DNA from: Psychrilyobacter atlanticus DSM 19335
GTDB lineage: Bacteria; Fusobacteriota; Fusobacteriia; Fusobacteriales; Fusobacteriaceae
Direction: 5' to 3'
NCBI RefSeq assembly: GCF_000426625.1
Contig: NZ_KE384547.1
Coordinates: 418,986-482,985, forward strand
Length of the DNA: 64,000 nt
Shown: positions 24,350 through 28,072 of the stretch, in pieces
Numbering within the stretch: the first letter of the stretch is position 1
How the letters are laid out: each line of letters opens with the position of its first letter
Position numbers and translations under genes: made by a program
The notes under the pieces: generated by a model
The model's input: the letters and a program-made list of their open reading frames with translations, nothing else
What the model was told of the DNA's origin: nothing
Database searches by the model: none

Positions 24350-24772
24350 ATGATATGGGATAGCGGAATGATTTGGTGGTTTTTATTAACCATCGTATTT
24401 ATAGGTGTAGAGTTAGCAGCACCGGCATTGGTGAGTATATGGTTTGCCTTTGCAGCTATAATATTGACGCTGATATCAGGAATGGTAAAAAATCCTATAA
24501 ACGAATTTTATATCTTTGTAGGACTCAGTGGATTTTTTCTGATATTGACCAGGCCAATAGCTAAAAAACTTTTAGAGAAAAGAAAACCTATTGAAAGTAG
24601 AATATTCGGTCAAGATGTTGAAATTTCTAAAAAAATAGAGGCAGACCTCTATGAGGTAAAACTGGATGGGAAATATTGGAGAGCTACTTGTGACGAAAAG
24701 TTAGAAGTAGGAGATGCAGGAGTAGTAGAAAGAGTAGAAGGTAATAAACTAATACTTAAAAAGAAGATATAA
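24350..24772 (+). CDS. NfeD family membrane protein
   Basis: A 140-residue protein with two to three hydrophobic segments (about residues 5-65) followed by a small beta domain ('GKYWRATCDEKLEVGDAGVV') of the OB-fold type. This is the short NfeD / YbbK form without a protease domain, which nearly always neighbours an SPFH protein as it does here. It probably anchors or regulates membrane microdomains formed with the next gene product. Confidence 0.88.
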   Translation: MIWDSGMIWWFLLTIVFIGVELAAPALVSIWFAFAAIILTLISGMVKNPINEFYIFVGLSGFFLILTRPIAKKLLEKRKPIESRIFGQDVEISKKIEADLYEVKLDGKYWRATCDEKLEVGDAGVVERVEGNKLILKKKI

Positions 24773-24784
24773 AAGGAGGCAAAC

Positions 24785-25675
24785 ATGTTATTATTTTTTC
24801 CATTGATATTAGTAATTATATTATTAATCGTAACTAATATCAGAATTGTACCACAATCACAAGCGTATGTTATAGAGAGGTTAGGAGCCTATATGAGTAC
24901 TTGGGAAGTTGGTCTTAGATTAAAAATTCCATTTATTGATAGGATAGCTAGAAAGGTATCGTTGAAAGAACAAGTAATAGATTTTCCACCTCAACCAGTT
25001 ATCACAAAGGATAATGTAACTATGCAGATAGATACAGTAATATATTTTCAAATTACAGATCCTAAGTTATATACATATGGAGTAGAATATCCTCTAAGCG
25101 CTATCGAAAATTTATCAGCTACAACGCTTAGAAATATAATAGGTGATTTAGAATTAGATTCTACACTAACATCTAGAGATGTTGTGAATACTAAGATGAG
25201 ATCTATATTGGATGAAGCTACAGATCCATGGGGAATCAAAGTAAACAGGGTAGAATTGAAAAATATTATGCCACCTGCAGAAATTCAGGATGCTATGGAA
25301 AAGCAAATGAAAGCAGAAAGAGAGAGAAGACAAAAGATATTGATTGCAGAAGGGGAAAAAACTTCGGCAATATTAGTAGCAGAGGGAGAAAAACAATCAG
25401 CAATCTTAAGAGCGGAAGCCAACAAAGAAGCTGCGGTAAGAGTAGCAGAAGGGGAAGCGGAAGCACTTCTAGAAGTTACAAAAGCTCGTGCAGAATCATT
25501 GAAATTATTAAATGAATCTCATCCATCGAAAGAAGTTCTTTCACTTAAAGCAATGGAAGCATTTGTTAAGGTAGCAGATGGAAAAGCAACTAAGATTATA
25601 ATTCCATCGGAATTACAAAATGTAGCTAACTTAGCTACAGCTTTTACAGCAGTAGGAGAAAATAAAGGAAAATAA
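24785..25675 (+). CDS. SPFH domain / band 7 family protein (QmcA-like)
   Basis: A 296-residue membrane scaffold protein: an N-terminal membrane anchor (residues 1-18), the SPFH domain (about 20-180, with 'RIVPQSQAYVIERLGAY' and 'NIMPPAEIQDAMEKQMKAER') and an Ala/Glu-rich coiled coil of repeated 'AEGEK' units. It is the usual partner of short NfeD proteins. In other bacteria the pair organises membrane domains and modulates FtsH. AAGGAGG precedes the ATG. Confidence 0.93.
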   Translation: MLLFFPLILVIILLIVTNIRIVPQSQAYVIERLGAYMSTWEVGLRLKIPFIDRIARKVSLKEQVIDFPPQPVITKDNVTMQIDTVIYFQITDPKLYTYGVEYPLSAIENLSATTLRNIIGDLELDSTLTSRDVVNTKMRSILDEATDPWGIKVNRVELKNIMPPAEIQDAMEKQMKAERERRQKILIAEGEKTSAILVAEGEKQSAILRAEANKEAAVRVAEGEAEALLEVTKARAESLKLLNESHPSKEVLSLKAMEAFVKVADGKATKIIIPSELQNVANLATAFTAVGENKGK

Positions 25676-25689
25676 AGAATTAATTATAA

Positions 25690-25720
25690 AAGGTAATATA
25701 CATGTTTTGTATATTACCTT
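25690..25720 (+). terminator. Terminator after the SPFH gene
   Basis: 12-bp perfect stem (25690-25701 with 25709-25720). Its arms share the core AAGGTAATATAC with the terminator at 26528-26570. Confidence 0.8.
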
Positions 25721-25752
25721 CTTTAATAGTTAGGGGATTTTCCGAGTGGATG

Positions 25753-25771
25753 CAACGTCACGTTGTTTTTT
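25753..25771 (+). terminator. Small hairpin with T tract before the selenoprotein gene
   Basis: CAACG TCA CGTTG followed by six T, ending 22 bases before the peroxiredoxin start codon. It is either a second terminator of the SPFH operon or an attenuator in the leader of the next gene. Confidence 0.5.
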
Positions 25772-25793
25772 ATCAAATTTATGGAGGTTTTTA

Positions 25794-26225
25794 ATGGAGA
25801 TTATTTTAGAAAATCAGAATGGAGATATGATTGATTTATCAGCTCATAAAGGAAAAAAGATCTTGTTTTTTTATCCTAGAGCAAATACACCTGGGTGAAC
25901 AACAGAAACAAAAGGGTTCGGTGAATCCTATGGAGAGTTTAAAGGTTTAGAGATAGAAATTTTTGGAATAAGCAAAGATACTGTAAAAAAACAATCGAAC
26001 TTTGCTAAAAAATTAGAAACACCATTTAGCTTACTCAATGATATTGATGGTATAGTCTGTGAAAAATTTGGTGTTTGGCAGGAGAAAAAATTCATGGGTA
26101 AAACATCTATGGGAATAGTAAGATCTACGTTTTTATTGGATGAAAACAATGAGATTCTAAAAGAGTGGAGAAAAGTAAAGGTAAAGGGACATGTAGAGGA
26201 AGTTTTAGAAACTTGTAAGGGGTGA
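25794..26225 (+). CDS. Selenocysteine-containing peroxiredoxin (BCP/PrxQ type), in-frame TGA at 25896-25898
   Basis: Reduces hydroperoxides. Translating from the ATG at 25794 (GGAGG 5 bases upstream), the frame is open to the TGA at 26223-26225 apart from one TGA at codon 35. That codon is exactly where the peroxidatic cysteine stands in the family motif: 'FYPRANTPG-U-TTE' against the usual TPGCTTE. The downstream part continues as a normal BCP protein ('GISKDT', 'FSLLNDIDGIVCEKFGVW', 'FMGKTSMGI'). A hairpin at 25913-25929 fits a bacterial SECIS element. The usual resolving cysteine five residues after the active site is absent (Lys instead). A simple nonsense mutation of a Cys codon is the alternative; conservation of the rest of the protein and the hairpin argue against it. 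Total 143 residues with Sec. Confidence 0.85.
25913..25929 (+). promoter_or_regulatory. SECIS-like stem-loop
   Basis: Six base pairs (25913-25918 with 25924-25929, one G-U) close a 5-base loop CGGTG. The loop's GG lies 21 bases after the TGA, within the spacing known for bacterial SECIS elements, which need an exposed G near the loop start. This is a model from sequence only. Confidence 0.6.
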
Positions 26226-26230
26226 TAGCT

Positions 26231-26527
26231 ATGGAATTGGATGTTATAATAAAAATTATTGTTTATATGATAATAGTTCGGATAATTATGAGCAAGGTAA
26301 ATAAAAAGAAAAATATGAGACCTGGTAATAAAAGAAGTTCTACTCCTAGAGGAACTGAAAGACAGAGAGGGAGCAGAATGCAAGGAAAACAAGAAGAAAA
26401 AAAGAATAAAAAAAATCTAGATTTAAATAGTTTTAGAGATATTATGCCTAAATCTAATAGTCCACTTTCAGCTGAAGAGAGGATGAAAAAAAGGGAAAAG
26501 GAATTAGAAAATATGAATAAGAGATAG
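26231..26527 (+). CDS. Small membrane-anchored hypothetical protein
   Basis: A 98-residue protein with one N-terminal hydrophobic segment (residues 3-20) followed by a very basic, Lys/Arg/Gln-rich, low-complexity tail. I do not recognise a family. The ATG at 26231 is chosen because AAGGGG at the end of the selenoprotein gene is well placed for it; a GTG at 26222 is also open. It lies 5 bases after the selenoprotein stop and ends at a terminator, so it is cotranscribed with the peroxiredoxin. Confidence 0.55.
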   Translation: MELDVIIKIIVYMIIVRIIMSKVNKKKNMRPGNKRSSTPRGTERQRGSRMQGKQEEKKNKKNLDLNSFRDIMPKSNSPLSAEERMKKREKELENMNKR

Positions 26528-26635: not shown

Positions 26636-26656
26636 AAAGCAACGTGAAGTTACTTT
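26636..26656 (-). terminator. Hairpin just after the permease gene
   Basis: Eight-bp stem with one G-U pair (26636-26643 with 26649-26656) and a 5-base loop, directly after the minus-strand stop codon. The T tail is poor. Confidence 0.5.
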
Positions 26657-28072
26657 TTATTTTTCTTTGAAATTTCCATCTGCATCCCTGTTTAGAATCA
26701 ATTCGTCCAACTCTTCTTTGGTATAATGTACAACCTTAAGATCATAAAATTTATAGAATGATAATCCTATTATACCCCAAACTACTAAAACTACTATAGA
26801 TGGTAAACTAAGGGAACTGTCTAGTCCTGGTACTAATAAAAGGATTAAAAATATTATCCCTGAGATAGAACCAAAAATACTTGGTATAAATGTTTTTCCA
26901 TATTCTTCCTTATATAGTTTATAAGATGAAAGACTTGTATATAGATATCCAATAGACGCTCCTACACTGGAAGTCCCAACTATCCATAACAATACATTTC
27001 TACCAAACCAAGGAGCTATCAAAGATATACCTAAGGTAAATAAAATTGCATTTTTAGGAGTATGATATTTTTTATCCAATACTCCGAAGAATTCTGGTAA
27101 TATCTTTCCTCTAGACATGGCAAATAACAATCTACTGGCTGCCATATAAAATCCATTTATTCCAGCTACTATAGCTGATGTAAGTGCTACTATTAAAAGT
27201 ATTATTCCTATCTTTCCAAAATAATATTCTGTAGTATATCCTGTTGCCCAAGAGATTTGACCATTCATTATTTGCTCACTTGTAACTCCAAAAGAAGTAA
27301 AAAGAATGATTAGTACGTAAACAAGTCCTCCTACTAAGATAGAAATTATAGCCAACTGAGATGCCTCTTTAGCTTCAAAATCTAATTCCTCCGCAACTTG
27401 CGGAATACAATCAAATCCTACAAATAACATTGGAGCAATAGATAGTATCTTTAATATTTTAGATAAACTCACTGTTTCTGAATCTATAAATGACATGGTA
27501 TTTGGATTAGTTATTCCCGCTCTGGCGATAACTAGACTTAAAAATAAAAAGACTATTCCTACCAGTAAAATTACCATTACCTTTTGTAATTGAGAAGCTA
27601 ATTTTATTCCTTTAATATTTAAATAAGCAAATAAGCAAAGGGCAGATAGAGCTACTCCTACTTCTCCTAAGTAAATCTCAGATCCTGCAATACTATAAAG
27701 ATGTCCTACTTCTAAAATTCCCGGCATGGTGAACTTTGCAACGAGAGCTAATGCTGTAGCATTTAATGGAACAATACTTATATATGCCAGGGCTAAAAAC
27801 CAACCACATGCTAAGGCATGCTTCCATCCAAAAGCGTCGTAGGTGAAGGCATATTCTCCACCTGCTACTGGAAATTTATGGAGCAGATAACCGTAATTTT
27901 TTTCAATTCCGATCATTATTAATGCCCCTGTAATTATTGCGATAGTTGAGTTTAAAATTCCTGCTTTTAAGAATAAATCTCCTGGAAGAACAAAAGCTCC
28001 CCATCCAATGATAGCCCCTATGGCTAACGATAATATATCCAATTTGTTAATTTCTTTTTTTAACATAATCAC
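26657..28072 (-). CDS. APC family amino acid permease
   Basis: A 471-residue membrane protein with about 12 hydrophobic segments. It has the amino acid-polyamine-organocation family start 'LSLAIGAIIGWGAFVLPGD' (residues 14-32, the unwound helix 1 that binds substrate), 'AGGEYAFTYDAFGW' in helix 2-3 and 'FVGFDCIPQVAEE' in helix 6. The substrate cannot be read from sequence. It is on its own on the minus strand behind a structured leader with an attenuator (28084-28268), which suggests control by a small molecule or a charged tRNA. AAGGAGTG is the ribosome binding site. Confidence 0.9.
   Translation of the reverse strand: MIMLKKEINKLDILSLAIGAIIGWGAFVLPGDLFLKAGILNSTIAIITGALIMIGIEKNYGYLLHKFPVAGGEYAFTYDAFGWKHALACGWFLALAYISIVPLNATALALVAKFTMPGILEVGHLYSIAGSEIYLGEVGVALSALCLFAYLNIKGIKLASQLQKVMVILLVGIVFLFLSLVIARAGITNPNTMSFIDSETVSLSKILKILSIAPMLFVGFDCIPQVAEELDFEAKEASQLAIISILVGGLVYVLIILFTSFGVTSEQIMNGQISWATGYTTEYYFGKIGIILLIVALTSAIVAGINGFYMAASRLLFAMSRGKILPEFFGVLDKKYHTPKNAILFTLGISLIAPWFGRNVLLWIVGTSSVGASIGYLYTSLSSYKLYKEEYGKTFIPSIFGSISGIIFLILLLVPGLDSSLSLPSIVVLVVWGIIGLSFYKFYDLKVVHYTKEELDELILNRDADGNFKEK

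Follow-up and report, generated by a model that had tools for sequence, protein, structure and literature searches.

The gene at positions 25,794–26,225 (+) of a 64,000-nucleotide stretch from the genome of the marine anaerobe Psychrilyobacter atlanticus DSM 19335 (hereafter the window, meaning that whole stretch) very probably codes for a BCP/PrxQ-type peroxiredoxin (COG1225) that contains selenocysteine; its in-frame UGA would be decoded through SelB, Sec-tRNA(Sec) and a downstream hairpin, Sec35 would act as the peroxidatic residue and the reductant would be external. This reading is carried by homology, conservation of the UGA, purifying selection on both of its sides, the Sec machinery present in the genome and a hairpin supported by comparison among relatives. 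In the mechanism proposed, a ribosome reaching the UGA of codon 35 would meet SelB with Sec-tRNA(Sec), which the hairpin at 25,913–25,929 (+) would hold in place, and selenocysteine would be inserted without termination, giving the full 143-residue protein. The product would be a thioredoxin-fold peroxidase whose Sec35 attacks a hydroperoxide and becomes a selenenic acid. This would most likely be reduced by an external thiol, e.g. thioredoxin or a small thiol, as there is no cysteine at residues 40 and 71.

Reading frame, homology and catalytic residues

The frame at 25,794–26,225 was translated into 143 residues (MEIILENQ...TPG-U-TTETK...LETCKG), and the only stop codons within it were the TGA of codon 35 (25,896–25,898, +) and the terminal TGA (26,223–26,225). 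A Shine-Dalgarno sequence (GGAGG, 25,783–25,787, +) lies 6 nt upstream of the ATG and is kept in relatives. Pfam AhpC-TSA (PF00578) matched over the whole frame (97.5 bits with a cut-off of 26, E 7e−28), and the Redoxin score was 50.4. The top solved structures were BCP proteins, headed by PDB 5enu (123 bits), and the PrxQ/BCP homology extended over the whole frame, before and after the TGA. Codon 35 was aligned with the cysteine in the TPGCT motif of PDB 5enu and 5iph, which is their peroxidatic residue, in agreement with the original prediction of a BCP-type frame interrupted only by a TGA at that residue, and it is from this homology that Sec35 is proposed to be peroxidatic; the TxxU motif appears as TPGU at codons 32–35. 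With C in place of U, the NCBIfam model NF006960 (thioredoxin-dependent thiol peroxidase equivalog) gave 137.1 bits, below its cut-off of 140, and thioredoxin dependence is therefore not claimed from that model. Moreover, none of the start-to-stop ORFs of at least 60 aa listed for the window covered the frame, so the gene is missed by ordinary ORF listing, as had been anticipated.

A second selenocysteine at the terminal TGA (C-K-G-U, then TAG) was also considered and rejected, since the orthologue in genome G054 ends in ...CRGL-TAA, that of G057 has TGATCATATG without the tandem TAG, and the TGA stands directly after AAGGGG (26,217–26,222, +, in codons 142–143), which likely serves the next ORF (ATG at 26,231) as its ribosome binding site. 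This downstream ORF (26,231–26,527, +) encodes 98 aa with a hydrophobic N terminus and a basic tail, gave no Pfam match and lies at the equivalent position in G059, G055 and G057; it is probably co-transcribed with the peroxiredoxin. Upstream, the gene of an SPFH/Band_7 protein (24,785–25,675, +, with an NfeD partner at 24,350–24,772) is followed by a hairpin at about 25,690–25,720 and is thus probably a separate transcription unit. Furthermore, an intergenic element whose sequence ends in GCAACGTCACGTTGCTTTTT was found dispersed through the genome, with 66 matches at two mismatches or fewer (0 for the reversed control), and in many of the 20 copies inspected a conserved stretch similar to TTATAAAAAYCTRAATTGTGCTTRTCTGGAT stood before it. 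The copies at 25,752–25,771 (for which no Rfam match was found) and 26,639–26,658 flank the peroxiredoxin and the downstream ORF.

Regarding the catalytic residues, the usual position of the resolving cysteine (CP+5) is occupied by Lys40 (25,911–25,913, +), the replacement originally predicted, and Ala71 (26,004–26,006, +) falls where the Xanthomonas BCP structures have Cys84 (NFCAK), their resolving cysteine. A 2-Cys PrxQ would have a cysteine at one of these two positions, and neither holds one here, so that a one-Sec cycle relying on an external thiol would explain the sequence most simply. Among the at least 117 distant Sec homologues listed (see below), the residue at U+5 was Cys in 54 and another in 63, so Lys40 belongs with the commoner, non-Cys state. 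The proposal of a 'one-residue Sec catalyst' is thus partly supported, by the lack of Cys at residues 40 and 71, but two further cysteines are still present, namely Cys89 (26,058–26,060, +), conserved in many Cys homologues, and Cys141 (26,214–26,216, +). Either of them is a possible partner of Sec35. A two-residue mechanism, in which Sec35 would form a selenenylsulfide with C89 or C141 and no external resolving thiol would be needed, is considered rather unlikely: Cys89 is aligned with a cysteine of 5enu and 5iph, and Cys141 was found in every clade relative covering the position, including G054, and was absent from the other homologues inspected, but both cysteines lie off the two resolving positions considered (CP+5 and Xanthomonas C84). 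Moreover, the C141 region overlaps the ribosome binding site of the next gene in Psychrilyobacter, and its conservation may in part be due to this overlap with AAGGGG; in G054, no gene directly follows the peroxiredoxin.

Conservation of the UGA and selection around it

Orthologues were searched in 98 genomes of the phylum. A TGA at the column of codon 35 was found in G059 (93% identical), G055 (87%), G060 (84%), G056 (71%) and G054 (67%), which makes six genomes including P. atlanticus; G054 belongs to another genus, and the copy of G056 is frameshifted with the TGA kept. The original prediction had pointed to an exchange of TGA and TGC among homologues as a check, and at this same column TGT was found in G057 (83% identical) and either TGT or TGC in the Cys homologues. 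As a side observation, a deletion of about 150 bases removed the Sec codon region from the copy of G061 (L041, match 1501–1716), whose frame is broken; this may be a genuine loss or a MAG error.

Downstream of the TGA, the comparison with G059 gave a dN of 0.035 and a dS of 0.307 and that with G055 a dN of 0.060 and a dS of 0.596, corresponding to a dN/dS of about 0.1, and the upstream values were similar. G056 was left out of the downstream selection tests because its copy contains frameshifts and, close to the 3′ end, what looks like a duplication. These sequence comparisons indicate that purifying selection acts on both sides of the TGA and that the protein is translated past this codon. 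A pseudogene or a sequencing error, i.e. a Cys peroxiredoxin in which TGT or TGC had become a nonsense TGA and from which no full-length product would be made, is extremely improbable: a single base change would suffice for it and two relatives do carry damaged copies (the 5′ half deleted in G061, frameshifts in G056), but five other genomes, one of them from another genus, share the TGA at that column, the frame beyond the TGA is under purifying selection and the genome has a complete Sec machinery. Hence, of the outcomes that had been named beforehand as contrary to the prediction, a decayed frame is at odds with the selection found downstream and a misread TGT or TGC with the presence of the same TGA in independent genomes.

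Selenium machinery, hairpin and cysteine congener

The genes of the selenocysteine pathway, proposed with the original prediction as a check, were all found in the 3.54-Mb genome above curated cut-offs. The tRNA-Sec scored 65.7 bits against a gathering score of 47, with the anticodon tca according to ARAGORN, while selA, selB and selD scored 590, 369 and 386 bits, respectively, and are neighbours on contig C3. Five further genes, sampled by family, were interrupted by an in-frame TGA where Sec is known or expected to occur. These were selD itself (SGGGUTSK) and four genes of the GrdB/PrdB family (L189–L192), in which the TGA lies in a UGTC motif where the PF07355 match ends, so that selenium-dependent amino acid reductases probably operate in P. 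atlanticus. On the other hand, 11 of the 55 ORFs of at least 150 residues in the window end in TGA, and UGA is therefore still a normal stop. Within the TGA clade, selA and tRNA-Sec were also found over the cut-off, with gaps in two genomes that are 76% complete each (tRNA-Sec not recovered in G060 and selA not in G058). The four family relatives tested that have Cys BCPs had best tRNA-Sec matches of 45–46.5 bits, just below the gathering score of 47, and selA matches far under the cut-off or none. Apparently, G054 has two tRNA-Sec copies above the gathering score (C7:46259–46348 and 75537–75626).

It is likewise most improbable that the UGA is read as another residue, selenium-free, through suppression by a near-cognate tRNA (Trp) or a reassigned UGA: the dN/dS ratio itself shows read-through and nothing more, but UGA terminates long ORFs in the window, the codon stands exactly at the catalytic Cys column and exchanges with TGT there, a dedicated Sec machinery is present and at least 117 distant copies have TGA at the same column. 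Judged from this evidence, the UGA of codon 35 is almost certainly read as selenocysteine.

The candidate bacterial SECIS hairpin (AGGGUUC-GGU-GAAUCCU, 25,913–25,929, +) has 7 bp and a GGU loop that starts 22 nt past the UGA. A hairpin had been predicted at this place and was found there with the same stem, but the CGGTG loop then assigned leaves the closing C-G unpaired, and the loop is GGU. Each of the six UGA copies folds into this 7-bp stem, the loop being GGU or GGG and starting 22 nt past the UGA, and 100% of the pairing cells are formed. One of the seven pairs showed a double-sided change, from G-C to A-U in G055, and a single change of this kind was reached in 102 of 500 pair-count shuffles and is not significant. 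Taken alone, the P. atlanticus hairpin folds no better than shuffles (z −0.41, 61/200), so the evidence for it is comparative; synonymous resampling of this copy gave p = 0.07, and the codon-identity test of the hairpin stretch against G054 was not significant. For the stretch after the UGA, the 115 distinct Sec homologues among the matches listed folded better than synonymous resamples, with a mean z of −1.05 compared with −0.24 in the Cys homologues of the phylum (Mann-Whitney p 0.007). No relevant Rfam match was found over 25,700–26,300, even at E 10. Overall, there is good but not decisive support, drawn from these comparisons, for the hairpin being a SECIS element.

The congener with TGT (G057) was placed in the protein tree within the UGA clade, as sister to G055 (97/94, inside a branch with 100/86). 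A constraint keeping all UGA rows together cost 19.75 log units, with a p-AU of 0.065, the gene DNA tree did not resolve the placement of G057, and the selA tree put it elsewhere inside the genus on a long branch. Considering these results, a replacement of Sec by Cys in G057 is favoured, not proven. G057 has both selA and tRNA-Sec over the cut-off, and its copy does not form the hairpin, in part owing to synonymous differences from G055; that Sec reverted to Cys (TGT) in spite of the retained selA and tRNA-Sec, with loss of the hairpin, appears moderately probable. If true, Sec would here have given way to Cys recently, where Table 1 of the 2006 survey (PMC1794560) had only Cys-to-Sec events for the family, and this would leave naturally occurring Sec and Cys versions of the enzyme that share 83% identity. 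Such a close pair (P. atlanticus, G059 or G055 versus G057) would be a test bed for the benefit of selenium to a peroxidase and would show how a SECIS decays.

Distribution and known relatives

A scan of GTDB genomes with the pattern FYP-x3-TPG-U-T gave at least 118 loci, of which 117 had an open BCP-like frame running through the TGA, while L092 was rejected as a chance match with no BCP frame. The matches listed came from Acidobacteriota, Gemmatimonadota, Myxococcota, Chloroflexota, Actinomycetota, Planctomycetota, Neomarinimicrobiota, Bacillota and others. With 117 BCP frames from many phyla among them, gene callers probably lose many such enzymes. One of the loci (L063) lies on a MAG contig titled Klebsiella pneumoniae (CAMBFS010000005.1), and its Sec-BCP grouped with Myxococcota and Binatota in the tree; the title may reflect a mislabelled bin.

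Among solved structures, the top-scoring PDB 5enu is a BCP that also lacks the CP+5 cysteine, with CTTEG replacing CTxxxC, and differs in having Cys where the P. atlanticus protein would have Sec. One-Cys BCPs related to 5enu exist. The Xanthomonas BCP (PDB 3gkk and 5iiz) shares the PrxQ fold and the TPGCTTE motif and differs at C84, the counterpart of Ala71. PrxU of Eubacterium acidaminophilum is described as a selenocysteine-containing peroxiredoxin (Sohling 2001, cited in PMC13188914). Its model (NF040737) gave only 40.9 bits against a cut-off of 270 for the P. atlanticus protein, also a peroxiredoxin, which thus belongs to a different subfamily.

Selenocysteine peroxiredoxins of COG1225 with the TxxU motif were already catalogued between 2005 and 2016. 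The Sargasso Sea survey lists in its Table 1 a Sec 'Peroxiredoxin (Prx)' of COG1225 with the motif TXXU and 43 genes (PMC1088965), and later surveys give 12 Sec-Prx, with Cys-to-Sec events counted five times and the reverse not once (PMC1794560), 253 Sec-Prx in the GOS data (PMC2398784) and 91 in 78 organisms (PMC5029168); the family was listed again in 2026 (PMC13188914). As every feature of this Prx family (COG1225, TxxU) that could be tested was found, the P. atlanticus gene is an ordinary further member of it. The fold family (PF00578), the COG and the peroxidatic Sec of TPG-U are common to both, and so are a hairpin past the UGA and the co-occurrence with the Sec machinery. In the portions of the literature covered by the search, no direct report of a selenocysteine PrxQ or of Fusobacteria with a Sec peroxiredoxin was found. 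Unlike the members described in the sections of those surveys consulted, the gene is hosted by Fusobacteriota (Psychrilyobacter and one further genus), a lineage unnamed for the family there, its clade lacks the CP+5 cysteine and one congener has Cys. Thus, Fusobacteriota is added to the groups in which a Sec peroxiredoxin is found, its gene being one that ordinary ORF calling would cut or skip, and what is new relative to these sources is the lineage, the missing CP+5 cysteine in the clade and the probable Sec-to-Cys replacement.
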